NCBI GenBank assembly: GCA_029933125.1
Contig: JAOZOU010000008.1
Location: 42,198 to 106,197 of the forward strand
Direction of reading: 5' to 3'
DNA length: 64,000 nt
From: a bacterium
GTDB lineage: Bacteria > Arandabacterota > Arandabacteria > Arandabacterales > Arandabacteraceae
Shown: in pieces, positions 11,112 through 43,491 of the stretch
Layout: each line of letters begins with the position of its first letter
Position numbering within the stretch: position 1 is the stretch's first letter
Translations under genes and position numbers: made by a program
The notes under the pieces: generated by a model
What the model saw: only the letters and a program-made list of their open reading frames with translations
Told to the model about the DNA's origin: nothing
The model's database searches: none

Positions 11112-11633
11112 ATGAAGAGGCTTGGATTTATTTTTGCTCTTATTTTGCTTCTGCCTATGGCTGCCGTTGGAGCCGAGCAGAAGATCGGATACGTCAATGT
11201 CAGTGCGATCTTCGAGCAGTATTCAGCAGCAAAAGAGGCTCAGCAGACATATCAAAAAGAGCTTGAAGAACTCAATCGTCAGGTAACTGAGATGGAACAG
11301 GCAATCCAAGCCTTGGCTGACACGCTCAATTATAAGCGCTATTATTTCAGTGAGGAGCGCTTGCGGGAGAAGCAGCAAGAGCTTGAGCAGCGCAAGAAGG
11401 ACTATCTGGACTTCAGGCAGAAGGCTGAAGCTAAGGCTGCACAGCGAAATGACGAACTCTCTAAACCAATCCTTAATGCTATTGAGGAGGCCATACGTAA
11501 GGTCGCCCAGAAAGAGGGCTTTGACTTAGTTCTGGACTCGGGACCTGGTATTGTGCTTTACTCAAAGCCCGAGCTTGACCTAACGGACAAGGTGTTACAG
11601 CTTCTTGAGGAATCAAGAAGCGCATCAGAATAG
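11112..11633 (+). CDS. skp: Periplasmic chaperone Skp/OmpH family
   Basis: Skp holds unfolded outer-membrane proteins in the periplasm on the way to BamA. The 173-aa product has a signal peptide (MKRLGFIFALILLLPMAA, cleavage after VGA), the family start KIGYVNVSAIFEQY, a long charged alpha-helical hairpin (about residues 45-130), and a C-terminal segment ending in LLEE. ATG 11112 is preceded by GAGGAGG (about 9 bases). It follows bamA by 19 bases, the usual gene order. Confidence 0.93.
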   Translation: MKRLGFIFALILLLPMAAVGAEQKIGYVNVSAIFEQYSAAKEAQQTYQKELEELNRQVTEMEQAIQALADTLNYKRYYFSEERLREKQQELEQRKKDYLDFRQKAEAKAAQRNDELSKPILNAIEEAIRKVAQKEGFDLVLDSGPGIVLYSKPELDLTDKVLQLLEESRSASE

Positions 11634-11652
11634 GTGATAGTTCGCCACAGGT

Positions 11653-12687
11653 ATGGAAATAACACTCAGCGAATTAGCGAAATTGATCGGTGGAGAGGTC
11701 TCGGGCGACCCTTCTGTGGTTATAACAGGGGTGGCTGGTATCAGGGAAGCTCGCCCTGGTGACGTAACTTTCCTAGCTGATCCGCGCTATAGCAGATTTC
11801 TCGAAACTACGAAAGCTTCGGCAGTGATTGCTCCGCCAAACGCAGGCCGCAGTAAGAAACCGCTCATAATCTGTGAAAATCCATATCTGAGCTTCGTAAA
11901 GGCTGTCGAATACTTCTTCCCTAATAGAGATTCCTATCCGCGTACTATCCATCCGTCGGCTGTCATTGCGTCAAGTGCAAACATTGGCAAGAATGTCGCA
12001 ATTGGTGCTTGTGCTGTGATTGAGGAGCATGTCAAGATTGGTGACAATACGGTGGTCCTTGCGGGTACATATATCGGTAAGCGGACCACTGTTGGAAGTG
12101 ATTGCCTCATATATCCCAATGTTACAATTAGAGAGGAGATCAAAATCGGCGACCGTGTCATTATCCATAGTGGTGCTGTTATAGGCAGCGACGGATTTGG
12201 ATTTGTGAAAGACGGTGAAGTCTACAGGAAGATACCGCAGGTTGGAAATGTTGTTGTTGAAGACGATGTCGAGATTGGCGCCAACGTTACAATAGATAGA
12301 GCCACTACCGGTACAACTCTTGTCGGAAGGGGCACAAAGATAGACAATCTTGTCCAGATCGGACACAATGTTGTAATAAGAGAAAACTGCATCATTGTTG
12401 CCCAGGTTGGAATAGGTGGAAGCACAGAGGTTGGAAGTGGAGCAACAATTGCAGGACAGGCCGGTATCGTCGGACATGTCAAGATAGGTGAAGGGGCAAT
12501 AGTTGCTGCTCAGGCAGGGGTTGTCGGTGATGTAACTCCGGGTGGAATGGTCTCTGGATATCCAGCCCGTGATCACAAGCAAGCCAAGAAGATTTACGCA
12601 AGCCTCCAAAAGCTTCCCGACCTTCTCAAGCGTGTTGCAGATCTAGCAGAGCGAGTTGCGAAACTTGAAAAAGGGCAGAAAGTATGA
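11653..12687 (+). CDS. lpxD: UDP-3-O-acyl-glucosamine N-acyltransferase
   Basis: LpxD adds the N-linked acyl chain in the third step of lipid A synthesis. The 344-aa product has the N-terminal LpxD uridine-binding domain (to about residue 100) and a left-handed beta helix made of hexapeptide repeats (V-x-I-G pattern). It contains the catalytic-region sequence with GSDGFGF and, later, the conserved IGHNVVI turn. A C-terminal helix (about 315-344) fits the trimer-forming extension. Its last bases overlap the lpxC-fabZ start (ATGA). Confidence 0.95.
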   Translation: MEITLSELAKLIGGEVSGDPSVVITGVAGIREARPGDVTFLADPRYSRFLETTKASAVIAPPNAGRSKKPLIICENPYLSFVKAVEYFFPNRDSYPRTIHPSAVIASSANIGKNVAIGACAVIEEHVKIGDNTVVLAGTYIGKRTTVGSDCLIYPNVTIREEIKIGDRVIIHSGAVIGSDGFGFVKDGEVYRKIPQVGNVVVEDDVEIGANVTIDRATTGTTLVGRGTKIDNLVQIGHNVVIRENCIIVAQVGIGGSTEVGSGATIAGQAGIVGHVKIGEGAIVAAQAGVVGDVTPGGMVSGYPARDHKQAKKIYASLQKLPDLLKRVADLAERVAKLEKGQKV

Positions 12688-14036
12688 CCACCAAACAGAG
12701 AACGATTAGGGAGATAATCTCTTTCGAAGGGGTCGGTCTGCATAGTGGGCAAAAGGTAACCATGACATTCAAGCCTGCCTGTGCTGATCAAGGCTTGCGC
12801 TTCGTCCGCAATGACCTGCCTGGAAGGCCTGAGATAGGAGTTGACGTTGCAAATGCTCCTGAGACGAGAGAAATCTCAAGGAGGACAGTCCTTAAGGTTG
12901 AAGAGGCAACTGTCAGCACAGTCGAGCATGTGCTTGCTGCCATCGTCGGTCTGGGAATAGATAATCTTGTGATAGAACTCGATGGACCGGAGGTTGCTGA
13001 ACCCGACGGGTCAAGCGTCCCCTTTGTTGCGCTTCTCAAGAAGGCAGGTCTCATTGAACAAGATGCACCCAAGCGATATCTTGAGATCAAGTCACCGGTT
13101 TCAATCTCCAAGGACGGCATCGAGCTGGTTGCTCTGCCACATCATGGCTTGCGTATTAGTTTCACGATTGACTTTCCGCACCCCTTGATTGGTACGCAAT
13201 ATGCATCGTTTGAAGTCACTGAAGATGTCTTTGAGAAACAACTCGCACCAGCCAGAACTTTTTCCCTCGTCAGCGATGTTGAGCTACTCAAGAGTCGTGG
13301 TCTTATAAAGGGTGGAAGCCTTAAGAACTCAATCGTTGTCGGGGACGATGGCATCCTCAACGATGAGCCTTTGAGATTTCCAGACGAATTCGTGCGGCAC
13401 AAGATCCTCGATCTCTTAGGCGATCTTGCTCTGCTGGGTGCACCGATTAAGGGACATATTATCGCTGTTAAATCGGGCCACGCCACCAATATACAGCTTG
13501 TGAGGAAGCTGCGCGAAACCTTTGATAACGCCCGAAAGACTTTCTCAGGAAGACACGTGCGCGATGTGCCATCAATGCTTTCAATAGAGGAAATCCAGGA
13601 GATAATGCCCCACCGATATCCTTTCCTTCTCGTTGATCGCATAGTCGAACTCGAGAAGGGTAAGCGTGTAGTTGGTATAAAGAATGTCACTATCAATGAG
13701 CCCTTCTTTGTTGGTCACTTCCCGGGGCATCCCATAATGCCGGCTGTCCTTATAATCGAGGCCATGGCTCAGGTTGGGGGAGTGCTTCTCTTGAGCATGG
13801 TCGAGAATCCTAAGGAGAAACTTGTCTATTTCATGGCTATTGATAAGGCAAAATTCCGCAAGCCGGTTTTCCCTGGTGATCAGGTGCGTTTTGAGCTTGA
13901 GATGATGAAGCTTATGCTCAATTCCTGCAAGATGAAGGGACGTGCCTTTGTCGATGAGAAACTTGTTGCCGAAGCCGAACTACTATCTGTTCTGATGGAT
14001 AGGGAGGACGTTAGGAAAAGAGGACTTTCTAGATGA
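12684..14036 (+). CDS. lpxC/fabZ: Bifunctional LpxC-FabZ fusion
   Basis: One 450-aa polypeptide joins UDP-3-O-acyl-GlcNAc deacetylase (LpxC, about residues 1-295) and beta-hydroxyacyl-ACP dehydratase (FabZ, from about 302). LpxC zinc and catalytic motifs are present: STVEHVLAAI with its histidine, EPDGSSVPF, and RHKILDLLGDLAL with H and D. FabZ shows MPHRYPFLLVD and GHFPGHPIMPAVLIIEAMAQ with its catalytic His and Glu. The fusion is known from Bacteroidetes/Chlorobi and related groups and joins the committed lipid A step to acyl-chain elongation. It overlaps lpxD and lpxA by 4 bases each (ATGA). Confidence 0.97.
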   Translation: MTTKQRTIREIISFEGVGLHSGQKVTMTFKPACADQGLRFVRNDLPGRPEIGVDVANAPETREISRRTVLKVEEATVSTVEHVLAAIVGLGIDNLVIELDGPEVAEPDGSSVPFVALLKKAGLIEQDAPKRYLEIKSPVSISKDGIELVALPHHGLRISFTIDFPHPLIGTQYASFEVTEDVFEKQLAPARTFSLVSDVELLKSRGLIKGGSLKNSIVVGDDGILNDEPLRFPDEFVRHKILDLLGDLALLGAPIKGHIIAVKSGHATNIQLVRKLRETFDNARKTFSGRHVRDVPSMLSIEEIQEIMPHRYPFLLVDRIVELEKGKRVVGIKNVTINEPFFVGHFPGHPIMPAVLIIEAMAQVGGVLLLSMVENPKEKLVYFMAIDKAKFRKPVFPGDQVRFELEMMKLMLNSCKMKGRAFVDEKLVAEAELLSVLMDREDVRKRGLSR

Positions 14037-31919: not shown

Positions 31920-31934
31920 GTAAGGAGAGTGAAG

Positions 31935-32879
31935 ATGGTTAGCAAAAACTCTGACAGGGCTCAACCCAGAAGAATTTCGATACGCGAGCGCACAAGCAAG
32001 GTATCAAAGGCAGACTTTGCTTCAATGCCTGATTCGTTTGGCTGGTTTGACAGCTTCAGGAAGATGATCCCGGACATCCTCGCAGGAAGGGACTTAAACG
32101 AGCTTGCAGACTCCATCGTTGAAGCTCATAGAGGAGGCAGATGTGTTGCTTTTATGATGGGAGCCCATGTGGTCAAATGTGGTCTCGGAGGGCTGATTGG
32201 TGAGTTGATTCGAAGGGGTATCGTTACGGCGATTGCCATGAATGGTGCGTGTGCCATTCACGATGTTGAGATTGCCCTCTGGGGGAAAACCTCCGAGGAT
32301 GTAGAAACTGCGCTTGGAGAAGGCACTTTTGGTATGACATCTGAAACTGTCACCTTCTTTGTTGATGCACTTTCCCTGGCAGCCAGGGATGCAATCGGAA
32401 TGGGGGAGGCAACCTTGAGAACTCTGGCTCATTGCGATCCTCCCAATCGCCACCTGAGTGTGCTTTCAGCGGCATATGAGGCGAAGGTTCCTACAACTAT
32501 TCATGTAGCGATTGGAACCGACACTGTTCACCAGCATGAGAGCATCGACGGCGCGAAATTGGGTATGGCAACTATGAAGGATTTTCGCCTGTTTTGTGAT
32601 ATAGTCAGCAACCTTAATAACGGCGTTATACTAAATCTCGGTTCGGCTGTAATCATGCCCGAGGTTTTTCTCAAGGCATTAGCAACGGCTCGAGGCAGGG
32701 GAATAAGTGTCGGGGACTTTACCGCAGCCAACTTCGACATGTATAGCCTATACAGGCCCACAAAGAACATAGTCGAAAGACCGCGTCTGCTAGGTGCAAT
32801 AACCTACAATTTCCTTTCTCACCACGAGATTATCCTGCCCTTCCTTTTCGCTGCAATCATGGCCAAATTGACTAACTGA
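31935..32879 (+). CDS. Deoxyhypusine-synthase-like protein in LPS locus
   Basis: A 314-aa protein starting at ATG 31935, with AAGGAG 7 bases upstream. FMMGAHVVKCGLGGLI, AIAMNGACAIHDVEIAL, GKTSEDVETALGEGTFGM and TIHVAIGTDTVHQH are strongly patterned and resemble a bacterial family distantly related to deoxyhypusine synthase (NAD-binding fold). Bacteria lack the eIF5A substrate, so a different reaction is expected, such as polyamine or sugar chemistry. Its place directly after heptosyltransferases in what may be one operon is the main clue. Family placement is from memory and moderate. Confidence 0.6.
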   Translation: MVSKNSDRAQPRRISIRERTSKVSKADFASMPDSFGWFDSFRKMIPDILAGRDLNELADSIVEAHRGGRCVAFMMGAHVVKCGLGGLIGELIRRGIVTAIAMNGACAIHDVEIALWGKTSEDVETALGEGTFGMTSETVTFFVDALSLAARDAIGMGEATLRTLAHCDPPNRHLSVLSAAYEAKVPTTIHVAIGTDTVHQHESIDGAKLGMATMKDFRLFCDIVSNLNNGVILNLGSAVIMPEVFLKALATARGRGISVGDFTAANFDMYSLYRPTKNIVERPRLLGAITYNFLSHHEIILPFLFAAIMAKLTN

Positions 32880-33043
32880 CTGGCACGCTAATTGCGAAAA
32901 AACCACCTCAGAAAAACCTTTTGATCCTGGCTGGTACCCTATTGAGTGGAGGAGTAGTGAATTAATGAACCAGCCCCCTAAGAAGAGCTCATCAAGCCCA
33001 TTGCATATTGCAAGGGGCAATTGCAGTCTGCGAATCGGGTACC
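32880..33043. other. Intergenic region without recognised gene
   Basis: Between the deoxyhypusine-synthase-like gene and the next promoter. A 7-bp inverted repeat GGCTGGT / ACCAGCC spans about 32928-32980 with a 34-base loop, and small hairpins occur around TTGC-GCAA near 33001-33013. None is followed by a T-run, so no intrinsic terminator is claimed for the upstream operon. Confidence 0.5.
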
Positions 33044-33072
33044 TTGACTTAACGCAACCTATGTGCTATAGT
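33044..33072 (+). promoter_or_regulatory. Strong sigma70-type promoter of polysaccharide locus
   Basis: TTGACT (33044-33049), a 17-base spacer and TATAGT (33067-33072) give five of six matches in each hexamer with ideal spacing. Transcription should start near 33079, leaving a leader of about 180 bases before the first structural gene at 33260. Confidence 0.85.
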
Positions 33073-33176
33073 AGAAAGGTAAAAATCGAAGAAGGGAGTG
33101 GTCTACAAGGTAAGTTTGCTACTGTTGACTTGGGCTTGAAGGGCTCGGTGATTCACCGAGGACGGAGTGACTTTGA

Positions 33177-33248
33177 ATGGCAAACTTACCTTTGGCAAAT
33201 CCCCAGTATTGCGGAATGGTGTGTTGCGCCATTCCTTTTTTTCTCTAG
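33177..33248 (+). CDS. Possible 23-aa leader peptide
   Basis: ATG 33177 follows GGAGTGA (33164-33170) by 6 bases and opens a 23-codon frame ending at TAG 33246-33248, inside the Shine-Dalgarno of the next gene. The predicted peptide has three Cys in six residues (CGMVCC) followed by a hydrophobic tail. Its codons run through the terminator's stem, so ribosome position could decide terminator formation, as in classical attenuation. It may equally be a chance ORF. No conservation evidence is available. Confidence 0.3.
   Translation: MANLPLANPQYCGMVCCAIPFFL
33213..33242 (+). terminator. Intrinsic terminator within leader (attenuator)
   Basis: GGAATGG (33213-33219) pairs with CCATTCC (33229-33235), extendable inward by two pairs, and is followed directly by seven Ts (33236-33242). 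It lies downstream of the locus promoter and upstream of the first gene, so it would stop transcription early unless overcome. Confidence 0.75.
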
Positions 33249-33259
33249 GAGGGTCTGAA

Positions 33260-33982
33260 GTGAAGCGCTTTCTTATCTTGGCAGCTTTGATTGGCCTTGT
33301 CATGGGTTGTGGATCCAAGCCGCAACCGTCCCTGAACTTCCCGACCACAAATGAGATCAAGCTTCCCGAGAGACCTTCGTATAGAATCGCTGTAGGGGAT
33401 CTCCTCAGCATCAAGTTCTTCTACTATCCTAATTACAACATCAATGTTTATGTACGTCCTGATGGCATCGTGACTATACCTCTGCTCGGTGAGGTAAAGG
33501 CTGAAGGGATGAAGCCCTCTGAGCTCGAGGCTATAATCAGAGCGAAATACAGTGAAGTAATTGCTGAGCCAGAGGTATCTGTGATTGTCAGCGAATTTGC
33601 TGAGCAAAGAGTTTTCGTTTTTGGTGAGGTTAAGAGCCCTGGAGCGGTTACCTACCTCGGATCAATGACCATTATCGATGCAATTGCTAATGCTGGTGGA
33701 GCACTGCCAAGCGGGCGTCTGAGTAGTGTCATTCTGATGAGAAGGATGGAGGATGGTAAATACGTAGGGCAACGTATCAACGTCGATGAGATTCTTGGAA
33801 GTGAAAATCCCGATAACGTCTATCTTATGCCACGTGACATCGTCTATGTACCGATGACTGCAATTGCTAAGGTGGACAAGTTCGTTGAACAGTTCTTCCA
33901 CAGAATCACCCCCGTCTGGCTCTTCTATATCTATGGCGACAGGGCAATCAGGCAGAGTGGGAATGTGATAATCGGGCAATGA
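33260..33982 (+). CDS. Wza-like polysaccharide export lipoprotein
   Basis: A 240-aa outer-membrane export protein. GTG 33260 has AGGAGGG 6 bases upstream and yields a lipoprotein signal with lipobox LVMGC (Cys near residue 17). The polysaccharide export domain follows (YRIAVGDLLSIKFFYYPN and VRPDGIVTIPLLGEV), then a SLBB-type domain (VFVFGEVKSPGAV). It is shorter than E. coli Wza (379) and lacks additional SLBB repeats, like many minimal export proteins. It is the first gene of the locus and precedes the co-polymerase. Confidence 0.9.
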   Translation: MKRFLILAALIGLVMGCGSKPQPSLNFPTTNEIKLPERPSYRIAVGDLLSIKFFYYPNYNINVYVRPDGIVTIPLLGEVKAEGMKPSELEAIIRAKYSEVIAEPEVSVIVSEFAEQRVFVFGEVKSPGAVTYLGSMTIIDAIANAGGALPSGRLSSVILMRRMEDGKYVGQRINVDEILGSENPDNVYLMPRDIVYVPMTAIAKVDKFVEQFFHRITPVWLFYIYGDRAIRQSGNVIIGQ

Positions 33983-34013: not shown

Positions 34014-35444
34014 ATGAATGGAACCGACACAGGTGCAGGCCAGATATCAGCTCGTGAAATCCTTACGGTCATCTTCAGGCGTAAGGTACCGATCCTGGTA
34101 TGTGCAGTCGCCGTAGCTACGGCTGCTCTTACAGCTGCCTCACGGACAACATCGGTTTATCAAGCGACAGCTAAGGTGCTTGTTAGAAGAATGGGCGCCT
34201 CACCTTTGGCAACCACATGGACACCCTTCTATGGTCTCGAGGAGGAGATGAACACTGAAGTCGAATTGGTGACGACAGAACCTGTCCTGGAGAGAGCCGT
34301 CGAGAAACTCAAAGAGGAAGGCGTCTACATTCATGTAACAGCTGGTGATAGTGAGATCGTACGGGAACCAACAGTTGCAGATCTCCGAGGAGGCGTGTCA
34401 GCAACACCAGTTGAGATGTCAAATATAATCCTTGTGAGATTCACAGGTTCAGACCCCAAGTTTGTTAGCGAAGCAGCAAATGCGATAGCGCAAGCCTATG
34501 TCGAACACCGCATTCTTTTAAGGAAGGCTGGCAGCGCTGTTGATTTCTTCCAGGATCAGCTCAATGCACTTGAACAGCGGCTTCTTAAACTCAAACAGAG
34601 AGAACTTACTCTGCGAAAGCAGGGCCAGATCTATGACCTTGAGTGGCAATACAGGGTTGCTATAAGTCGCAAGAATGACCTCGAGGCTAAGCTAGATGAC
34701 GTTCGCAGCCAGAGGATAGCTGAGGAGCAAAAATTGAAGATGATAAAGCAGCGCCTGGCTGAAGACCCTGATCTGCTTGTGCCCTTCCCCAACTTTGTGC
34801 GAGACAAGCTAGGTGGGCACATGCTTTCAGAGTACTGGTCGCTCCATAAGGAACGCGACGCCCTCGCCTCGACGCTGACTGAGTCAAATCCCAAGGTCAA
34901 GATGCTGGACGAGCAAATTGCAAAGATGCGGCAACGCTTCCGCGAAGAGATACAACGCAGGATCAAGGAAAAGGAATTCCTACTCGAGGATCTCAGAGCT
35001 GAGGAAGAGGGCTATGAGAAGACAATACGGGAGATTTCAGAGCAGCTTAGAAAGACCCCCGATGTCGTCGCAGAAATCGAGCATTTGCAGAAGGAAATCT
35101 ACTACACCTATTTCCACTACGACAAAGTTCTCGAGAAAATGCTGGATACGATGGCTTCCGAGGCAAATGACATAAGGATTTCAAACGCTAAGGTGATCAG
35201 CCCTGCACGCGCACAACTGACCAAAGCTGGCAAGATGCAAACCGTTTATGTCGCCTTCTCGCTTCTTCTTGGCGTAACCCTCGGTATAGGCTTCGGTTTC
35301 CTACTTGAGAATCTGGATCACTCGGTAAAGTCAGCCGCAGATGTGGAAGACACCCTCGGTGTTCCCTTGCTCGGCTCGATTCCTGATAGCCGCAAGTTGC
35401 CGACATTAACGAGAAGTCTCGGAAACAGACGGACAATTGATTGA
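34014..35444 (+). CDS. Wzz/GumC-like polysaccharide co-polymerase
   Basis: A 476-aa inner-membrane chain-length protein. TM1 lies near residues 20-40 and TM2 near 405-425. Between them is a Wzz domain and a long charged coiled coil (about 180-380), including the SNPKVKMLDEQIAKM segment typical of GumC/ExoP types. A short cytoplasmic tail follows, with no fused kinase. The partner ATPase-like protein is the next gene, overlapping by one base (TGATG). Confidence 0.9.
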   Translation: MNGTDTGAGQISAREILTVIFRRKVPILVCAVAVATAALTAASRTTSVYQATAKVLVRRMGASPLATTWTPFYGLEEEMNTEVELVTTEPVLERAVEKLKEEGVYIHVTAGDSEIVREPTVADLRGGVSATPVEMSNIILVRFTGSDPKFVSEAANAIAQAYVEHRILLRKAGSAVDFFQDQLNALEQRLLKLKQRELTLRKQGQIYDLEWQYRVAISRKNDLEAKLDDVRSQRIAEEQKLKMIKQRLAEDPDLLVPFPNFVRDKLGGHMLSEYWSLHKERDALASTLTESNPKVKMLDEQIAKMRQRFREEIQRRIKEKEFLLEDLRAEEEGYEKTIREISEQLRKTPDVVAEIEHLQKEIYYTYFHYDKVLEKMLDTMASEANDIRISNAKVISPARAQLTKAGKMQTVYVAFSLLLGVTLGIGFGFLLENLDHSVKSAADVEDTLGVPLLGSIPDSRKLPTLTRSLGNRRTID

Positions 35445-36148
35445 TGAGAGGGATGGAGATGGAGAAGGAAGTGCAAGAGATGACACTCAGAGAAAGCAGT
35501 TCAAGAGGGGAATCCATTGTGATCCCGGAGGAGGCTCTCTATCACTACAAAGGCCTGATAGGGCAGATAGAGGTTGGGCTTCCTCAACAGAAGTCACGCG
35601 TCCTGCTTTTCTCAAGTTCGCTCGAGAAAGAGGGAACAACTGAGGTTGTAGTCGGACTTGGAGTGGTGCTGGCGGCCGGAATGGGGCGTAAAACGGCCAT
35701 AATCGATTGCAATCCTGCCAATCCCGAGCTCCAGGAAAGATTTGGTACATCGAGCATAGGGCTCAACGAATACATGAAAGGAATGATTCCCTTAGAGCAG
35801 GCCCTGTCTAATACGACTGTTCCAAATCTGCATGTCATGCCACTCGGTGAGAAATTCACCACCTTGGCGGCTTTTGGCGAAGAGCGTCTCATCAGCGGCT
35901 TAGATCGTCTTCGCCAGAGATTCGAATATGTGCTTATAGACTCCGCCCCAATTGGCTTGAATCCTGATATGACAGTTCTTTGTGACAAGGTTGATGCAGT
36001 TGTTCTTGTTGTAAGGCATGCGAAGACGAGGCGAGAAGTTGTAAAGCGTGCCAAGGAGATCATTGAGCGTGCTGGCGGAAAGGTCCTCGGTGTAGTTCTC
36101 AATCGAAGGAAATTCCCGATACCAGAATTCCTCTATCGAAGACTTTAG
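35444..36148 (+). CDS. CpsD/CapB-like protein with degenerate P-loop
   Basis: A 234-aa protein with the fold pattern of bacterial tyrosine kinases: strand RVLLFSSS, later Walker A'-like AAGMGRKTAIIDCN, and a Walker B-like YVLIDSAP. The Walker A lysine position (usually GKST) reads EGTTEV near residues 63-68, so the catalytic lysine is missing. The C-terminus lacks a tyrosine cluster (only one Tyr, in FLYRRL). It is likely a non-catalytic partner of Wzz rather than a kinase. ATG 35444 is chosen over TTG 35441 because it couples directly to the upstream stop. Confidence 0.8.
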   Translation: MRGMEMEKEVQEMTLRESSSRGESIVIPEEALYHYKGLIGQIEVGLPQQKSRVLLFSSSLEKEGTTEVVVGLGVVLAAGMGRKTAIIDCNPANPELQERFGTSSIGLNEYMKGMIPLEQALSNTTVPNLHVMPLGEKFTTLAAFGEERLISGLDRLRQRFEYVLIDSAPIGLNPDMTVLCDKVDAVVLVVRHAKTRREVVKRAKEIIERAGGKVLGVVLNRRKFPIPEFLYRRL

Positions 36149-36171
36149 GGCCTGCGGGGAGGAGTTATCCG

Positions 36172-37689
36172 TTGGAAGAGGGACTTGGTCACTTGCGACG
36201 TTCATACCTTCCCTACATATTGGCTCTTGCCATTCTGGGAGGAATCTCCATCCGTTTTGTCGAGATGGATACTCACAGTCTATGGACTGATGAGGTAATG
36301 ACTCTTGACAATGCCTATATCTTTAGCTCACTCGAGGTTAAGAGCATACTAAGCAATCTCCAGGGTCCGCTAGTCTCGCTCCTAATGCATTTCTGGGCTA
36401 AGATGGGAAAGGGTGAGATATGGCTAAGATTCCCATTCGCTCTTGCTGGAGCCCTTACGGTATGGGTGGCATATCGCCTGACACGCCTTGTCCTTGATCA
36501 ATGGCGGGGTTTGCATGTAGTGCTATTTATCTCACTTTCGCCATTGCTGGTCTGGTATTCCCAAGAGATAAGAGGTTATGCCTTCGTTTTACTTTTCACG
36601 CTACTTATGACATATTATTTCGTCAAATGGCTTGAGGAACCAGACAGGCGTTCCATAGCACTTTATGGCCTGTGTCTCTATGCTGCGTTACTTTCCAATC
36701 TCTCAGCAGCTTTTGTGGGTGCAGCCCACTTCCTTTACCTGCTCACGTCCCCCCGCAGACGGAGACTCCTGGGAAGATGGATTGTTACAGGTCTTGTGGT
36801 TATGCTTCTTTTCGCACCATGGGTCCGAACGATGGTAGCGAAGGTGGTTCCGCATTTGGAGATGGCTGGCCAGGTACACTCCAAGCCCCTCGGCGGAGCC
36901 CAATTGACACCCTATACCGTTCCATACGTTTGCTATGCCTTCAGCGTAGGTTACACTCTTGGTCCTTCAACGCGTCAACTCAAAACCAACCCATCGAGAG
37001 CTATAAGAGATAACCTCGGATGGATACTGGTGTCGTCCTTTACCTTTGCTATTCCGGTCATCGTGGGGCTCAAGAACTTGATTCGCAGCAATCCCGACTT
37101 TGCGCTCTTAGTGATCTTATGGCTTCTCCTACCCATATTGTCCACAATTGCTGTTGCAAGCGCACACCTCAAGGTTTTCACTCCAAGATATACCCTTGTT
37201 GCTCTTCCAGCCTATGCTTTTCTGTTTGGCCATGGTCTGGGGAGCATGGGGAGAAGAAGTTACACCTTCCTTATCTTACTTGCCATAGGTTTGTGGACGA
37301 TCTCCATCGTTAACTATTTCACGAATGAAGCTTATGCCAAAGATGATGCGAGAGATGCCGCAGCCATCATAAGGAAGAATTTCAAACCTGGGGATACTGT
37401 GCTAGCCTTCTATTCAGCCGAACCCCTTGTAGATTACTATCTCAGAGATTTCGGACATATTTCCGTATTTGAAGCTGGGGATATATCCTCGCCTGAGAAC
37501 ATGGTCAAACGCTGTGAAAAGGAAGCCATGGAGGCTGAGCGCATATGGCTTTATCTATGTCGTGACAGCATGATTGATACTGAAGGAGTTGTGCGTTCGT
37601 GGTTTGACAGGACACTGGAGTTGGTCAAAAGTGACACTCTTCCAGGGGTGGAACTCAGACTGTACCGTAAGAAGGATCAGCCACAGTGA
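36172..37689 (+). CDS. GT39/ArnT-like membrane glycosyltransferase
   Basis: A 505-aa multi-pass protein with about ten or more TM segments. The N-terminal loop D-T-H-S-L-W-T-D-E-V carries the Asp-Glu pair typical of PMT/ArnT-type lipid-linked glycosyltransferases. LSPLLVWYSQEIRGYAF is another family hallmark. A soluble C-terminal domain (about 390-505) follows. TTG 36172 has GGGGAGG 8 bases upstream. It probably transfers a sugar from a polyprenyl-phosphate donor to the polysaccharide. GT2 enzymes in the locus could make that donor. Confidence 0.85.
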   Translation: MEEGLGHLRRSYLPYILALAILGGISIRFVEMDTHSLWTDEVMTLDNAYIFSSLEVKSILSNLQGPLVSLLMHFWAKMGKGEIWLRFPFALAGALTVWVAYRLTRLVLDQWRGLHVVLFISLSPLLVWYSQEIRGYAFVLLFTLLMTYYFVKWLEEPDRRSIALYGLCLYAALLSNLSAAFVGAAHFLYLLTSPRRRRLLGRWIVTGLVVMLLFAPWVRTMVAKVVPHLEMAGQVHSKPLGGAQLTPYTVPYVCYAFSVGYTLGPSTRQLKTNPSRAIRDNLGWILVSSFTFAIPVIVGLKNLIRSNPDFALLVILWLLLPILSTIAVASAHLKVFTPRYTLVALPAYAFLFGHGLGSMGRRSYTFLILLAIGLWTISIVNYFTNEAYAKDDARDAAAIIRKNFKPGDTVLAFYSAEPLVDYYLRDFGHISVFEAGDISSPENMVKRCEKEAMEAERIWLYLCRDSMIDTEGVVRSWFDRTLELVKSDTLPGVELRLYRKKDQPQ

Positions 37690-39158
37690 GAGCTCTGGTA
37701 ACAGCAAGAGAGGCGCGAAAGCTACCAATCACTTTCTTCATTCTCATAGCCCTTTCGGTATTTATTGGAGCGTATGCTGGCTCGAAAGCCGCTCTTCAAT
37801 TCAAGACCTTGTTCTACGGCCTTGTCCTCTCCAACGTTCTCGTGGCCGCCTATTTGCTTCTCATTAAGGACATGTCCTATGGCATACTTGTCTATCTTTA
37901 TTCCCTGACCTTTCTCAATTTTTACTGGCGCATAGTCTTGCCTGGAAAGTGGCCCGATCTTGACATACCCCGCCTGGTCTTCGTCTTCCTGTGGCTTATC
38001 TTCCTTCTGGAAGTGGGATTGGGTGTTCGCAGGCTCCTTCCCCGAACCAATGCTGAGATAGCTATGCTTGGCGTTGTCATAGCTATCGTAATCTCAATGT
38101 CGACAAATGGCGTTGTCCAGATCCGTCAGCTCCTTAATGGATTTGCGATTCCCTATGCGGTATTCGTCGTAGCCAAGAATATTTTCAGAACCGAAAAAGA
38201 CATAAACAAGCTTGTCTATCTTGTAGCAGTTCCAATCTCAATCTACTTCCCCGTGAATCATATATTCGAACACTACAGGATGACCCAGTTTGTCTTTCCT
38301 CGTTACATCCTGAGTCCTCAGGTTGCGGGACAGGAAATATTCTGGGGCGGTCGAACGATGGGGGTATTCTTGCAACCTTCGGCAACAGGTATGGCAACGG
38401 TTTCGATTTTTGTGCTAAGTCTCTATGGGCTCTCCAAACGTGGTGGCGCTTTGGCAAAGATAGTGGCTATGATTATAACGTTGCTAACCCCAGTAGGTGT
38501 TTTCTTCACCTACACACGGTCAGTCTATCTTGGGTTTTTCATGGCCATGCTTGGTCTGGCAATCTTTTCGCGCAAGATGAAAATCTATGCAATCGTAATT
38601 ATAACCATGATCATACTTGGTATCCTCGCCAACTGGAGCAATATTAAGACTGAGAAGCGCGAGGTAGGTGGTTTGGCGACGAAGCATACGGTCCAATCCA
38701 GGCTTGTTCTATATCAGGCTTCTTTGTCGATGTTCCTTGACCATCCCTTCCGCGGGGTTGGTTTCAAGCGCTTCCAGGAAAAGGCTTTGCCATACATTAG
38801 GCGGGTGCGAACAACCTTTCTCGGATATAGGGAATCCTGGATGGGTAAGAATCTTAACATGCACAACCACTTTCTCAATACACTGAACGAGGTTGGTCTG
38901 ATGGGATTTATTCCTCTTGTACTTGTCTATTACTTTATTTTCAAAATACTGATTCCGGCACGCAGGCGGCCAACCCCTGCTTATGATTCGGATTTTGTTG
39001 TAGCTGTCTGGGCTATTTTTGCCCAGTACATTTCGAATGCCATGTTTATGGAACCCAGATTTTTTGAATTCATGAACGTATTTCCATTTATGATGGCTGG
39101 AATAGTTATCGGAGGTCAACAAAGGCTGAAGCTTTACGGAAAACAGGCATTTGAGTGA
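37686..39158 (+). CDS. O-antigen polymerase/ligase-like membrane protein (Wzy/WaaL type)
   Basis: A 490-aa protein with about 11 TM segments and the O-antigen ligase domain: TYTRSVYLGFFMAMLGL and, in a large periplasmic loop, NMHNHFLNTLNEVGLMGF with the conserved His. Polymerase and ligase cannot be separated on sequence alone. Its location among Wza/Wzz genes favours polymerase. GTG 37686 overlaps the upstream stop (GTGA). Confidence 0.85.
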   Translation: MRALVTAREARKLPITFFILIALSVFIGAYAGSKAALQFKTLFYGLVLSNVLVAAYLLLIKDMSYGILVYLYSLTFLNFYWRIVLPGKWPDLDIPRLVFVFLWLIFLLEVGLGVRRLLPRTNAEIAMLGVVIAIVISMSTNGVVQIRQLLNGFAIPYAVFVVAKNIFRTEKDINKLVYLVAVPISIYFPVNHIFEHYRMTQFVFPRYILSPQVAGQEIFWGGRTMGVFLQPSATGMATVSIFVLSLYGLSKRGGALAKIVAMIITLLTPVGVFFTYTRSVYLGFFMAMLGLAIFSRKMKIYAIVIITMIILGILANWSNIKTEKREVGGLATKHTVQSRLVLYQASLSMFLDHPFRGVGFKRFQEKALPYIRRVRTTFLGYRESWMGKNLNMHNHFLNTLNEVGLMGFIPLVLVYYFIFKILIPARRRPTPAYDSDFVVAVWAIFAQYISNAMFMEPRFFEFMNVFPFMMAGIVIGGQQRLKLYGKQAFE

Positions 39159-39172
39159 AAGGAGAGGGACAG

Positions 39173-40279
39173 GTGAAGGTACCATTTGTCGATCTTAAGG
39201 CGCAGTATGATTCGATGCAGAACGAGATAGTCGAGGCCATACTACGCGTGGTTGAAGATACAGCCTTCGTGGGGGGCAAGTATGTTCAAAAATTTGAGGA
39301 GGAATTTGCAGCCTACTGCAATCGTAGGTACGCCATTGGTGTGAGCTCAGGAACCTCAGCCCTCCATCTGGCTCTTATTGCCCTTGGGATTGAGAAAGGC
39401 GATGAGGTGATAACCGCTGCCAACACCTTCATAGCCACAACTGAGGCAATCACACACGCTGGTGGTAAAGTGAAACTTGTGGATATCGACCCCGATTCCT
39501 ACACAATTGATCCGTCCAAGATAGAGGATGCAACAAGCGATCGCACAAAGGTTATCATCCCTGTGCATCTTTATGGTCAAGCTGCTGATATGGATCCCAT
39601 TCTTGAGATTGCCTCAAAGCATGGGCTTAAGGTTCTTGAGGACGCAGCCCAAGCTCAGGGTGCTGAATACAAGAGTAGAAAGACAGGCTCATTAGGTGAT
39701 GCTGCTGCCTTCAGCTTTTACCCTGCGAAGAATCTCGGAGCCTATGGCGACGCTGGGATTGTAGTGACCGATGACGAGGAGGCTGCTCAGAAGATAAGGC
39801 TATATTCAAATCATGGAAGGGAGAGTGCTAACGTGCATCTCGTCGAAGGCTTCAATGAACGCCTTGATGGTATTCAGGCATCGGTGTTGAGTGCAAAGCT
39901 CAAGCATCTGGATAGGTGGAATGAGATGAGACGCCAAGCAGCCAAGAGATATGATGAGATGCTCAAGGATCTTCCTGTCAAAACACCCAAGCAGATGCCC
40001 TATGCGAAACACATCTATCATCTCTACGTCATAAGGATAGAACAGAGGGATCGTATCAAGGAGATGCTTGGGGAAAAGGGGGTTGGGTGTGGGCTTCACT
40101 ATCCAACACCAATCCATCTCCTCGATGCATACAAGTACCTTGGGAAGCCTGAGGGTTCTTATCCTGTGACTGAGGAGGTTGCCCGTGAAATCCTTTCGCT
40201 CCCAATGTATCCTGAAATAACAGAAGAACAGCAAAGATACGTTGTCGACTGCATTGCTGAGGCACTGGAGAGGATTTAG
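39173..40279 (+). CDS. DegT/DnrJ/EryC1 PLP-dependent sugar aminotransferase
   Basis: A 368-aa PLP enzyme that aminates nucleotide-bound keto sugars. GTG 39173 gives the family start VPFVDLKAQYDSM and has AAAGGAGAGG upstream (GTG 39155 would add six unlikely residues). Motifs: SSGTSALHLAL, EDAAQAQGAEY, and SFYPAKNLGAYGDAG with the PLP lysine. Together with the downstream Gfo/Idh and hexapeptide acetyltransferase it fits the WbpE step of UDP-2,3-diacetamido-glucuronate synthesis. Confidence 0.92.
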   Translation: MKVPFVDLKAQYDSMQNEIVEAILRVVEDTAFVGGKYVQKFEEEFAAYCNRRYAIGVSSGTSALHLALIALGIEKGDEVITAANTFIATTEAITHAGGKVKLVDIDPDSYTIDPSKIEDATSDRTKVIIPVHLYGQAADMDPILEIASKHGLKVLEDAAQAQGAEYKSRKTGSLGDAAAFSFYPAKNLGAYGDAGIVVTDDEEAAQKIRLYSNHGRESANVHLVEGFNERLDGIQASVLSAKLKHLDRWNEMRRQAAKRYDEMLKDLPVKTPKQMPYAKHIYHLYVIRIEQRDRIKEMLGEKGVGCGLHYPTPIHLLDAYKYLGKPEGSYPVTEEVAREILSLPMYPEITEEQQRYVVDCIAEALERI

Positions 40280-41800
40280 GTGGCGCAACAAACACAGCAC
40301 CAGACAGTTCGAGAAGGTCGCATCGTGCCGGGATCTATAAAGCGACCGCGAACACTGTTCAGCAGGAGCTATGTGCTCTGGCTGGTTGACATTGCTTGTG
40401 TCTGTGTAGCCCTGTATCTTGCCTATTGGCTGAGAGTCAACTATCATCGCCTCACCCATCCTGTGCCAGTTGGCTCACAACGTATTATAGCAATGGTTGT
40501 GATAAGTGTTGTCTGGACAATCATCTTTGCTTTCGAGGGACTCTATCGTCGAGCGAAGGTGATGGCGGGGCTGGATCAGATCTTATCGATAGTCAAGAGC
40601 ATCACCCTCGGTTTCCTTTTGCTTCTTGGACTTTCATTCGTATGGAAGCGTTATCACTATTTTGTTGAGACGCGCGGAGTGCTCGCACTAGGATGGATGC
40701 TGGCAGTCTCCTTGATGACAACCTTGAGAGTCGGGATAATTCGCAATCACCTTCGCAGTAAATTGAGGCGCCCGACTGGAACAAGGAGAGCAGCTGTGGT
40801 TGGAGCAATACCTTTTGCTAGACGATTCATTGGTCAACCCATGCCGTCAACCAATGGCTATCAGGTGCTGGGCTTTATTGAAACCCGGGATGGCGAGATA
40901 TCCTCAGACCTAGGTTCTGAATATGTGCTTGGAAGGGTAAACGATCTCGATGACATTCTTGCCTCCTACGACATTGAGGAACTTTTCCTTCCGCTTGCTC
41001 TGGTTGAAAACAGGCAGGCATTTGACATCGTCTCAAAATGCTCGAGGACCGGACTGCCGCTGAGACTTGTTTCCGACATGTTTGAAATCCTCATGCCAGA
41101 TGAATCAAAAGAAGTTGTCGACGGCCTGCCTCCGATCGCGCTTGGAGAACCGGCTATAAGGGGCGTAAGGATGGTTGCCAAGCGTGCAATTGACCTTGCG
41201 GTCTCTCTTCTTGTGCTTGTTGTTTTTGCTCCCCTTTTCCTTCTCATCGCCTTGCTTATAAGAATCACATCGCCAGGACCTGTTCTCTTCAAGCAGATTA
41301 GAGCAGGGAAGGATGGCAGACCATTTACTTTCTATAAGTTTCGAACCATGCGCCATGATACCGATGATGCTCTTCACAGAGAATACGCGACCAACTTCAT
41401 TGGGGGCAAAGAACTCAGACTGAAAGACGAGATTAGTAACAAGAAAGTCTATAAGATGCCTAATGACCCAAGGGTGACACCAATAGGACGTATCTTGAGG
41501 AGGACGAGTCTCGATGAGCTTCCTCAGATATTCAATGTCATAAAGGGAGAAATGAGTCTTGTCGGACCACGACCTCCCATCGCCTATGAGCTCACGGTCT
41601 ATAAGGAGTGGCACAAGCGTCGTTTGAGAGCTAAGCCAGGGATAACGGGGCTCTGGCAGGTGAGCGGCAGATCGAGCGTGCCATTCCACGAGATGGTGCT
41701 TCTCGATCTCTATTACATAAATCGCTGGAGTTTGAAATTGGACTTGGAGATACTCGTCAGAACTATCCCAGTTGTACTATCAGGGAAAGGAGCATACTAG
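40280..41800 (+). CDS. Polyprenyl glycosylphosphotransferase (WbaP/WcaJ-like)
   Basis: A 506-aa initiating enzyme that puts a sugar-1-phosphate on undecaprenyl phosphate. It has four or so N-terminal TM segments (to about residue 160), a central Rossmann-like CoA-binding domain, then the catalytic PHPT domain: KRAIDLAVSLLVLVVFAP, FYKFRTMRHD, SLDELPQIFNVIKGEMSLVG then PRPP, and GITGLWQVSGRS. GTG starts directly after the previous TAG with GGAGAGG upstream. The sugar type is not predictable here. Confidence 0.92.
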   Translation: MAQQTQHQTVREGRIVPGSIKRPRTLFSRSYVLWLVDIACVCVALYLAYWLRVNYHRLTHPVPVGSQRIIAMVVISVVWTIIFAFEGLYRRAKVMAGLDQILSIVKSITLGFLLLLGLSFVWKRYHYFVETRGVLALGWMLAVSLMTTLRVGIIRNHLRSKLRRPTGTRRAAVVGAIPFARRFIGQPMPSTNGYQVLGFIETRDGEISSDLGSEYVLGRVNDLDDILASYDIEELFLPLALVENRQAFDIVSKCSRTGLPLRLVSDMFEILMPDESKEVVDGLPPIALGEPAIRGVRMVAKRAIDLAVSLLVLVVFAPLFLLIALLIRITSPGPVLFKQIRAGKDGRPFTFYKFRTMRHDTDDALHREYATNFIGGKELRLKDEISNKKVYKMPNDPRVTPIGRILRRTSLDELPQIFNVIKGEMSLVGPRPPIAYELTVYKEWHKRRLRAKPGITGLWQVSGRSSVPFHEMVLLDLYYINRWSLKLDLEILVRTIPVVLSGKGAY

Positions 41801-42865
41801 ATGAGTAACAAGACACCTAATGGAGAGATCGCTAAGACCACTGTCGGAGTCATAGGTTGCGGTTACTGGGGTCCCAACCTTATTCGCAATTTCAATCAGC
41901 TCCCCATTTCGCGGGTTAAGTATTGCTGTGATCTTGATGATTCACGTTTGAAGCACATGAAATCTCTTTATCCCAATGTTGCTATCACAAAGAACTATGA
42001 AGATCTCATAAATGACCCGGAAGTTGATGCCGTAGCGATAGCAACACCAGTTTCCACTCACTTTCCGATTGCTAAAGATTGCCTCGAGGGTGGCAAACAT
42101 GTACTTGTCGAGAAACCTCTGGCAGCAAGTATTGGAGAAGCGGAGGAACTCGTTAAAATTGCTGAAGCAAAGCAAAGAATTTTGTTCACAGGACATACCT
42201 TTGTCTACAATGCGGCTGTCCAGAAGATGAAGGAGCTGGTTGAGGAAGGTGAGCTGGGTGACATCTATTATGTCAGTAGCATCAGGGTTAACCTCGGACT
42301 CTTCCAAGAAGATATCAATGTCATTTGGGACTTGGCTCCCCATGACATCTCCATCCTCAACTATCTTTTCGGTTCTGAGCCGATCACCGTGAGCACCTTT
42401 GCAAAGTCATACATAAGACCCGGTATTGAGGATGTTGCTTTTCTAACCTTACAGTATCCCAAGAACATTGTTGCCCACATCCATGTGAGCTGGCTTGACC
42501 CGTGCAAGATAAGAAGAACCACTCTGGTTGGAAGCAGGAAGATGCTTGTCTATGATGACACATCCACCCTCGAGAAGATTCGTGTCTATGACAAAGGTGT
42601 TACAATTCAACCCCACTATGACACCTTTGGAGAATTTCAACTTGCCTATAGGTTTGGAGACATTGTTGTTCCTAAGATCAATGATGTTGAACCTCTCAAA
42701 ACAGAATGCATCCACTTTATTGAATGCATAAGGAACGGCGCACGTCCAATGAGTGATGGCACTCAGGGACTAAACGTCGTAAAAGTGGTTGAACGCGCAT
42801 GTGAGTCAGCGAAGCTGGGTGGAGCACCCTTGGCACTGGAAAGACACCAGGGAGGAAGTGAGTGA
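41801..42865 (+). CDS. Gfo/Idh/MocA oxidoreductase (WbpB/WlbA-like)
   Basis: A 354-aa NAD-dependent sugar dehydrogenase with GVIGCGYWGPNLIRNF (Rossmann), the EKP motif (LVEKPLAAS) and the active-site region DLAPHDISILNYL. AAAGGAG lies upstream of ATG 41801. In the WbpB/WlbA reaction, UDP-GlcNAcA is oxidised at C3. The next gene encodes a hexapeptide acetyltransferase and a DegT enzyme lies two genes upstream, matching three steps of that pathway. WbpA is not in the window. Confidence 0.88.
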   Translation: MSNKTPNGEIAKTTVGVIGCGYWGPNLIRNFNQLPISRVKYCCDLDDSRLKHMKSLYPNVAITKNYEDLINDPEVDAVAIATPVSTHFPIAKDCLEGGKHVLVEKPLAASIGEAEELVKIAEAKQRILFTGHTFVYNAAVQKMKELVEEGELGDIYYVSSIRVNLGLFQEDINVIWDLAPHDISILNYLFGSEPITVSTFAKSYIRPGIEDVAFLTLQYPKNIVAHIHVSWLDPCKIRRTTLVGSRKMLVYDDTSTLEKIRVYDKGVTIQPHYDTFGEFQLAYRFGDIVVPKINDVEPLKTECIHFIECIRNGARPMSDGTQGLNVVKVVERACESAKLGGAPLALERHQGGSE

Positions 42866-43491
42866 TGCTTAAGGTAAAACCGACCGTTCTGCTCGGTAAG
42901 GATTGTGAAGTGGATGTCGGGGTTCTCCTCGGATACCCACCAGCCAGAGGTGAGAACATCGACAAAGTCATTATTGGCGATGCTGCGAGAATCCGATCGG
43001 GGACGGTTATCTACGGTGGGGTCACGATAGGAAAGTATCTGCAGACAGGACATAACGTTGTCATTCGCGAGGAAAATGTCATAGGTGATAATTTCAGCAT
43101 CTGGAATAATTCAGTAATTGACTATGGTTGCTCGATTGGCAATGGTGTAAAAATACACTGCAATTGCTACATTGCGCAATTCACGACAATCGAGGACAAT
43201 GCCTTCCTAGCACCAGGGGTTACAATTGCTAATGACCTTCATCCTGGTTGCGCATTTTCATCTAAGTGCATGCGAGGGCCTCACATTCACAAAGGTGCGC
43301 AAATCGGTGTGAACGTTACAATCGTACCCTTTGTCCACATAGGCGAGAATTGCCTCATAGGTGCAGGGAGTGTGGTGACAAAGGACGTTCCACCTTACTC
43401 CCTGGCCTACGGCAATCCGGCTAGGGTTGTAGGTGATGTTCGAGATCTCACGTGCACCACTGGCCTGACAGATCGTCCTTACAAGTCCTAG
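42865..43491 (+). CDS. Hexapeptide-repeat acetyltransferase (WbpD/WlbB-like)
   Basis: A 208-aa left-handed beta-helix acyltransferase with many hexapeptides (IGKYLQTGHNVVIREENVIG, IGENCLIGAGSVVTKDV) and the C-terminal YGNPARVVGDV signature. It likely N-acetylates the 3-amino group formed by the DegT enzyme. ATG 42865 couples to the previous stop (TGATG) with GGGAGG 9 bases upstream. GTG 42862 is an alternative. Confidence 0.9.
   Translation: MLKVKPTVLLGKDCEVDVGVLLGYPPARGENIDKVIIGDAARIRSGTVIYGGVTIGKYLQTGHNVVIREENVIGDNFSIWNNSVIDYGCSIGNGVKIHCNCYIAQFTTIEDNAFLAPGVTIANDLHPGCAFSSKCMRGPHIHKGAQIGVNVTIVPFVHIGENCLIGAGSVVTKDVPPYSLAYGNPARVVGDVRDLTCTTGLTDRPYKS

Follow-up and report, generated by a model that had tools for sequence, protein, structure and literature searches.

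Transcription elongation is controlled at the head of polysaccharide operons by RfaH and the ops element. In the eps operon of Bacillus subtilis, intrinsic terminators are the target of a cis-acting RNA, the EAR element (PMC7858274, citing Irnov and Winkler 2010). The dfn leader contains a UNCG-type hairpin to which LoaP, a paralogue of NusG, binds (PMC12691694; NusG paralogues are reviewed in PMC7819879), and the put RNA of phage HK022, while still nascent, acts directly on the polymerase and needs no protein partner (PMC9378689). At the level of initiation, sigma-54 is known to control exterior polysaccharides (PMC3162934), and PilS-PilR regulons have likewise been described (PMC6058289).

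Here we analyze the region preceding a wza-like gene in a 64-kb stretch of bacterial DNA (henceforth the window), which is part of contig C141 of genome G000. We examined eight genomes of this candidate phylum (G000-G007), all of them draft metagenome assemblies, of which six belong to the family of the window (G000-G005) and two lie outside it (G006 and G007). G000 and G001 are sister species of one genus, and G002 and G005 likewise share a genus. A preliminary description of this DNA had proposed that a promoter, a long stem with an inner hairpin, a terminator and a Shine-Dalgarno sequence together constitute a switch of mutually exclusive hairpins. Its observation is confirmed in part and its interpretation supported in part, in that the components are real and the switch is not conserved.

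A structured leader conserved ahead of wza

Using DNA and pattern searches we recovered the leader in five of the six family genomes (G000, G001, G003, G004 and G005), with a single copy in each and always immediately before wza; in G001 the two are located at the ends of separate contigs. No leader was recovered in G002, in which only a distant, longer Wza-like protein was found and whose assembly is 87% complete, so that the absence may reflect either loss or a gap; a weak covariance-model match in this genome (E 0.025) was judged to be due to chance. A pattern scan of 84,980 species returned, beyond the family members, a single match (L030), which falls within a coding gene of a Methylococcaceae genome and was likewise attributed to chance. 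A covariance model run against 386 genomes gave no convincing new member, the best E outside the five leaders being 0.0028 per genome, again judged a chance value. Nor did the sequence inspected at other wza-like genes (L038 in G007, L041 in G004) contain such a leader. In agreement with the preliminary description, which could place the element in no known class, the Rfam 15 riboswitch and leader families gave no match in the leader at gathering or permissive thresholds; weak matches were confined to a microRNA on the opposite strand and a snoRNA far under threshold. Confidence in the existence and conservation of the leader element itself is high.

The gene order of the exopolysaccharide locus behind the leader (Table 1) is kept in G001, G003, G004 and G005 over the stretches compared, which reach ten genes in G003. 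The description of the region as a structured leader with a terminator before a polysaccharide locus thus stands, the leader being conserved, covarying and set in a conserved gene order. The upstream neighbor of wza (window 31929-32879) is conserved beside it in G003, G004 and G005, and shows weak matches to deoxyhypusine synthase and the ArgZ C-terminal region, both below the Pfam cut-offs. An open reading frame at 32965-33258 runs over the leader, and an inverted repeat at 32985-33000/33131-33146 was found by eye to be absent in G001.

Table 1. Predicted features of the wza leader region, in window coordinates
Feature	Position	Strand	Sequence or content	Remarks
Sigma-54 promoter	32881-32897	+	TGGCACGCTAATTGCGA	right after the stop codon of the upstream gene
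Tandem palindromes, probable activator sites	33001-33033		TTGCATATTGCAA (33001-33013) and TTGCAGTCTGCGA (33021-33033)	20 bp centre to centre
Sigma-70-type promoter	33044-33072	+	TTGACT-N17-TATAGT, extended -10	10/12 to consensus; kept in 5/5 leaders
Purine-rich 5' flank	33091-33102	+	GAAGGGAGTGGT (GAARGGAGUGRU)	adjoins P1; nearly invariant in 5/5
P1 5' arm	33107-33121	+	AAGGTAAGTTTGCTA	12 core pairs kept in 5/5
Apical hairpin	33144-33160	+	CUCGGUG-AUU-CACCGAG	from folding
P1 3' arm	33178-33192	+	UGGCAAACUUACCUU	invariant U-G pair
Intrinsic terminator	33213-33242 (stem 33213-33235)	+	GGAATGGTGT-GTT-GCGCCATTCC and T7	same place in 5/5 leaders
Shine-Dalgarno of wza	33247-33253	+	AGGAGGG	from sequence; before GTG 33260
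wza-like export protein	33260-33982	+	Poly_export, SLBB	first gene; Pfam PF02563, PF10531
Downstream locus	34014-43491	+	Wzz, unknown, PMT_2, Wzy_C, DegT, Bac_transf, GFO_IDH_MocA, hexapeptide transferase	

The intrinsic terminator and the Shine-Dalgarno sequence directly after it, both reported previously, were recovered by our analysis. In an alignment of the five leaders, which represent four genera and whose relatedness limits the weight of covariation, 98.2% of the cells of the long closing stem (P1) and the terminator are paired and six pairs are changed on both sides, a number matched by 2 of 500 shuffles. When the partner was shifted by 1-3 columns as a control the pairing dropped to 37-47%, and RNAalifold, unprompted, recovers both helices from the five aligned leaders. 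Covariation among homologous leaders, which had been suggested as a check, hence supports these two helices. Most of it resides in the terminator stem, where five of the ten pairs show a compensatory change. A survey of 479 kb of G000 on both strands (the window and contigs C76, C23, C42, C120 and C141) detected 16 terminators at <= -8 kcal/mol and about six at <= -13 kcal/mol (folding energies are for 37 C and standard conditions). As strong terminators are this rare in G000 and all five orthologous leaders carry one, a chance terminator in a 200-bp leader is unlikely. With a conserved terminator between the promoter and the first gene in every case, the leader is a candidate attenuator in the broad sense. 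As a separate point, the scarcity of strong intrinsic terminators in G000 raises the possibility that Rho-type termination dominates there. The terminator abuts the Shine-Dalgarno sequence of wza in four of the five genomes; in G003 (L005) the interval from the terminator to wza holds about 130 additional bases, which contain inverted repeats and have no counterpart in the other four leaders.

The whole leader folds better than its shuffles (z = -3.06, with 1 of 200 shuffles as good). The 13-bp closing stem noticed earlier is a perfect inverted repeat (33107-33119/33180-33192) and does enclose an inner hairpin, whose stem is the same only within the genus of G000 and G001; in the other genera the sequence of the apex is unrelated. 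Among the 12 core pairs of P1, one shows a compensatory change, two vary only by wobble and nine never vary; because P1 hardly varies, a constrained sequence is shown more clearly than a constrained helix. This near-invariance contrasts with an identity of 47-54% between the Wza proteins of different genera. Together, the invariant U-G pair and a C/A mismatch that adjoins the helix in the alignment point to recognition of P1 by its sequence.

The preliminary description further held that GAATGGC (33175-33181) can take the place of the terminator 5' arm as partner of the 3' arm. The complementarity of GAATGGC and GCCATTC is a true one of 7 bp in G000 (p 0.0015 versus shuffled arms), but p rises to 0.19 in G001, the sister species, and to 0.85-0.95 in the three other genera. 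On the alignment 74% of the corresponding cells are paired, with no double change, and the pairs do no better than shuffles. P1 and the terminator are predicted to form together in all five leaders, with probabilities of 1.00 and 0.86-1.00 respectively. With the P1 5' arm masked, the terminator probability dropped in G000 (0.99 to 0.51) and in G003 (0.92 to 0.65) and stayed the same in the other three. As a different candidate antiterminator we considered GGGAGUGG, which is strong in G000 and G001, appears in G005 if the terminator 5' arm is blocked and is absent in G004 and G003; it was rejected. Given that the GAATGGC pairing is limited to G000 and the alternative offered by the 5' flank is absent in G004 and G003, the five leaders revealed no conserved mutually exclusive pairing and no conserved rearrangement that would relieve the terminator.

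Two predicted promoters and a candidate PilR regulon

The sigma-70-type consensus promoter of the preliminary description is conserved in all the leaders and would start transcription near 33079. That reading had overlooked both a sigma-54 promoter farther upstream and the tandem activator sites. In a search with a matrix trained on eight promoters from other loci, the sigma-54 site scored 20.2 bits, the top of the 64-kb window, with the next best site at 13.4. Its counterpart TGGCACGCWAATTGC is present in all five leaders at -162 to -167 relative to the -35 hexamer. RpoN was found in all eight genomes of the phylum; the parts of a system of sigma-54 and an enhancer-binding protein, namely RpoN, a promoter with -24 GG and -12 GC and enhancer sites, are all present. 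Control of the whole locus by the leader, as claimed originally, is plausible, but the sigma-54 promoter, which lies some 160 bp farther upstream, must then have a part in it.

The tandem palindromes, located 10-13 bp upstream of the sigma-70 -35 hexamer, are the only such tandem sites in the window and are probably binding sites of an enhancer-binding protein, PilR. At wza the tandem TTGCAnnnTGCAA is a strict match in G000, G001 and G004, one base off in G005 and degenerate in G003. The strict pattern has 15 matches in the six family genomes and none in G006 and G007, and a reversed-pattern control gave none in any of the eight. Eleven matches lie away from wza. In nine of these a sigma-54 promoter comes about 100-120 bp farther on; the remaining two, in G002 and G005, stand before a Cpn60 chaperonin gene (L122:8588, L123:2722). 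At these two places no sigma-54 match occurs on that strand between the sites and the gene. In G000 the site-linked sigma-54 promoters precede pilB, pilT, pilC, pilS and pilR (L117, with pilR at 11495-12883), genes for GGDEF and HD-GYP proteins that form an operon (L116), and the gene of a small 143-aa protein whose N-terminus is lipoprotein-like (L118). Across the family (L116-L121) the tandem sites are common to pilBTC-pilSR, the GGDEF/HD-GYP operon, the lipoprotein-like protein and wza, in the manner of a family-wide regulon. A pilin-like protein (N_methyl; L117:13064-13495) directly follows pilR and has its own sigma-54-like site at 12997.

That the tandem sites are shared with the sigma-54 promoters of pilBTC-pilSR and the GGDEF/HD-GYP operon suggests that PilR controls the wza promoter. 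As G000 has 17 strong enhancer-binding-protein matches, PilR is a natural candidate chosen by operon content. The arrangement at wza is unusual in that the tandem sites are downstream of the sigma-54 promoter, unlike at the other loci.

Regulatory interpretation of the leader

Based on these observations we propose that the region is the regulatory head of the exopolysaccharide operon, in the form of a cis-acting attenuator leader under two promoters with a hairpin recognized by a putative factor, and we give this reading about an even chance of being correct. The tandem sites would bind an enhancer-binding protein (probably PilR) that activates the sigma-54 promoter, and a second start would be made at the sigma-70-type promoter. 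Both RNAs would traverse a sequence-specific hairpin, consisting of P1 and the purine-rich 5' flank, and then the strong terminator that immediately precedes wza. In the default state this terminator would halt polymerases in vivo, and a putative factor recognizing P1 and the flank as its site would admit polymerase to the operon. The existence and identity of this factor, the positive sign of its effect and the regulation itself are inferred.

As to the type of factor, the seven genomes searched (all except G005; assemblies 83-97% complete) each yielded one NusG-domain match and no NusG paralogue was found in them; with a single NusG in each, RfaH- or LoaP-type control is unlikely. An ANTAR search gave no match and is uninformative, as control genomes also gave none. 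A bolder and quite improbable extension of the proposal would have P1 and the GAARGGAGUGRU flank act as a new RNA antitermination element that dispenses with a NusG paralogue. P1 would place the flank near the terminator, where the flank, stabilized by a putative protein or ligand, would sequester the 3' arm together with the U-tract (a pairing of about 15 bp in G000), thereby joining pilus and c-di-GMP signaling to exopolysaccharide export. When the 5' arm of the terminator is blocked, the flank is predicted to pair with the 3' arm and U-tract in two genera; between its GGAGUGG and the 3' arm 86% of cells are paired, which is not above shuffles.

The region could instead encode a stand-alone, trans-acting small RNA of about 155 nt, comprising the sigma-70 promoter, P1 and the terminator, whose adjacency to wza is mere synteny. 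Its own conserved promoter, purine-rich 5' tail, hairpin and terminator with U-tract do resemble a small RNA gene, and the upstream gene and wza are syntenic in any case. We nevertheless consider this unlikely, in view of the abutment of terminator and Shine-Dalgarno sequence in most of the genomes, the lack of a second copy elsewhere, and the position of the sigma-54 promoter, whose transcript would also cross P1 and the terminator. Another possibility is an invariable terminator that, without being regulated, keeps basal sigma-70 transcription low, with P1 merely shaping or stabilizing the RNA. The joint folding of P1 and the terminator in every leader, with no conserved alternative, fits such a device, but it requires neither a near-invariant P1 nor the GAARGGAGUGRU motif, and we view it as rather improbable.

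Translation-coupled attenuation, in which the ribosome site and TTG start of a 5-8-codon frame (AGGUAAGU-UUG, TTG 33116-33118) are buried in P1 until a ribosome opens it, is very unlikely: an SD-like AGGU with TTG and an in-frame stop at codon 6-9 do recur in all five leaders, but the peptide is not conserved, the stop position varies even within the genus, and masking of the P1 5' arm clearly frees the terminator only in G000. CsrA, in turn, might bind the GGA motifs of the leader (the invariant ARGGAGUG and the Shine-Dalgarno sequence) and either repress translation or set termination. CsrA is encoded in seven of the eight genomes, with two copies in G000, and GGA is mildly enriched in the leader (p 0.03; ANGGA p 0.08); against this, no CsrA was found in G004, where the leader is nonetheless kept, and CsrA would leave the invariant helix unexplained, making this a very slim prospect. 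Finally, the original switch, in which GAATGGC would replace the terminator 5' arm once P1 opens under a ligand or protein, is largely refuted as a conserved device and has only a very small chance of being right, as the pairing that looks convincing in G000 weakens in the sister species, disappears in three other genera and shows no covariation, and as the nearly invariant helix, variable apex and lack of an Rfam family lend a riboswitch no direct support.

Comparison with described systems

The proposed attenuator leader under two promoters would, on the proposed reading, act at a terminator as EAR, the LoaP-bound dfn hairpin and HK022 put do. Like EAR it belongs to an exopolysaccharide operon; EAR lies between genes 2 and 3, whereas the present element occupies the 5' leader and has no Rfam match. 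It resembles the LoaP-dependent dfn leader in placing first an RNA hairpin and then an intrinsic terminator ahead of a long operon, and differs in that P1 is a long helix of invariant sequence and a single NusG was detected in each of the seven genomes. The same absence of a second NusG-family gene among them sets it apart from RfaH and ops. HK022 put offers a precedent for action without a protein partner; it is, however, a phage element, whereas direct action of the present leader, which has no Rfam counterpart, is hypothetical. Like the sigma-54 and PilS-PilR systems, the locus combines a sigma-54 promoter and enhancer sites at exopolysaccharide genes, with sites common to pilus genes, but here a sigma-70-type promoter and a terminator-bearing leader follow, and the enhancer sites are between the two promoters.

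The sites shared by these loci define a testable regulon that would join pili, c-di-GMP enzymes and exopolysaccharide, and the leader, at about 200 nt, is a small construct for probing another route of antitermination. Exopolysaccharide operons have repeatedly come under post-initiation control, as in ops/RfaH and EAR, and the known cases are from a few phyla. To these the present leader would add an RNA element not listed so far, whose helix is defined and nearly invariant. It occurs in a candidate phylum in which no spare NusG was found, under a promoter that probably answers to a pilus regulator.
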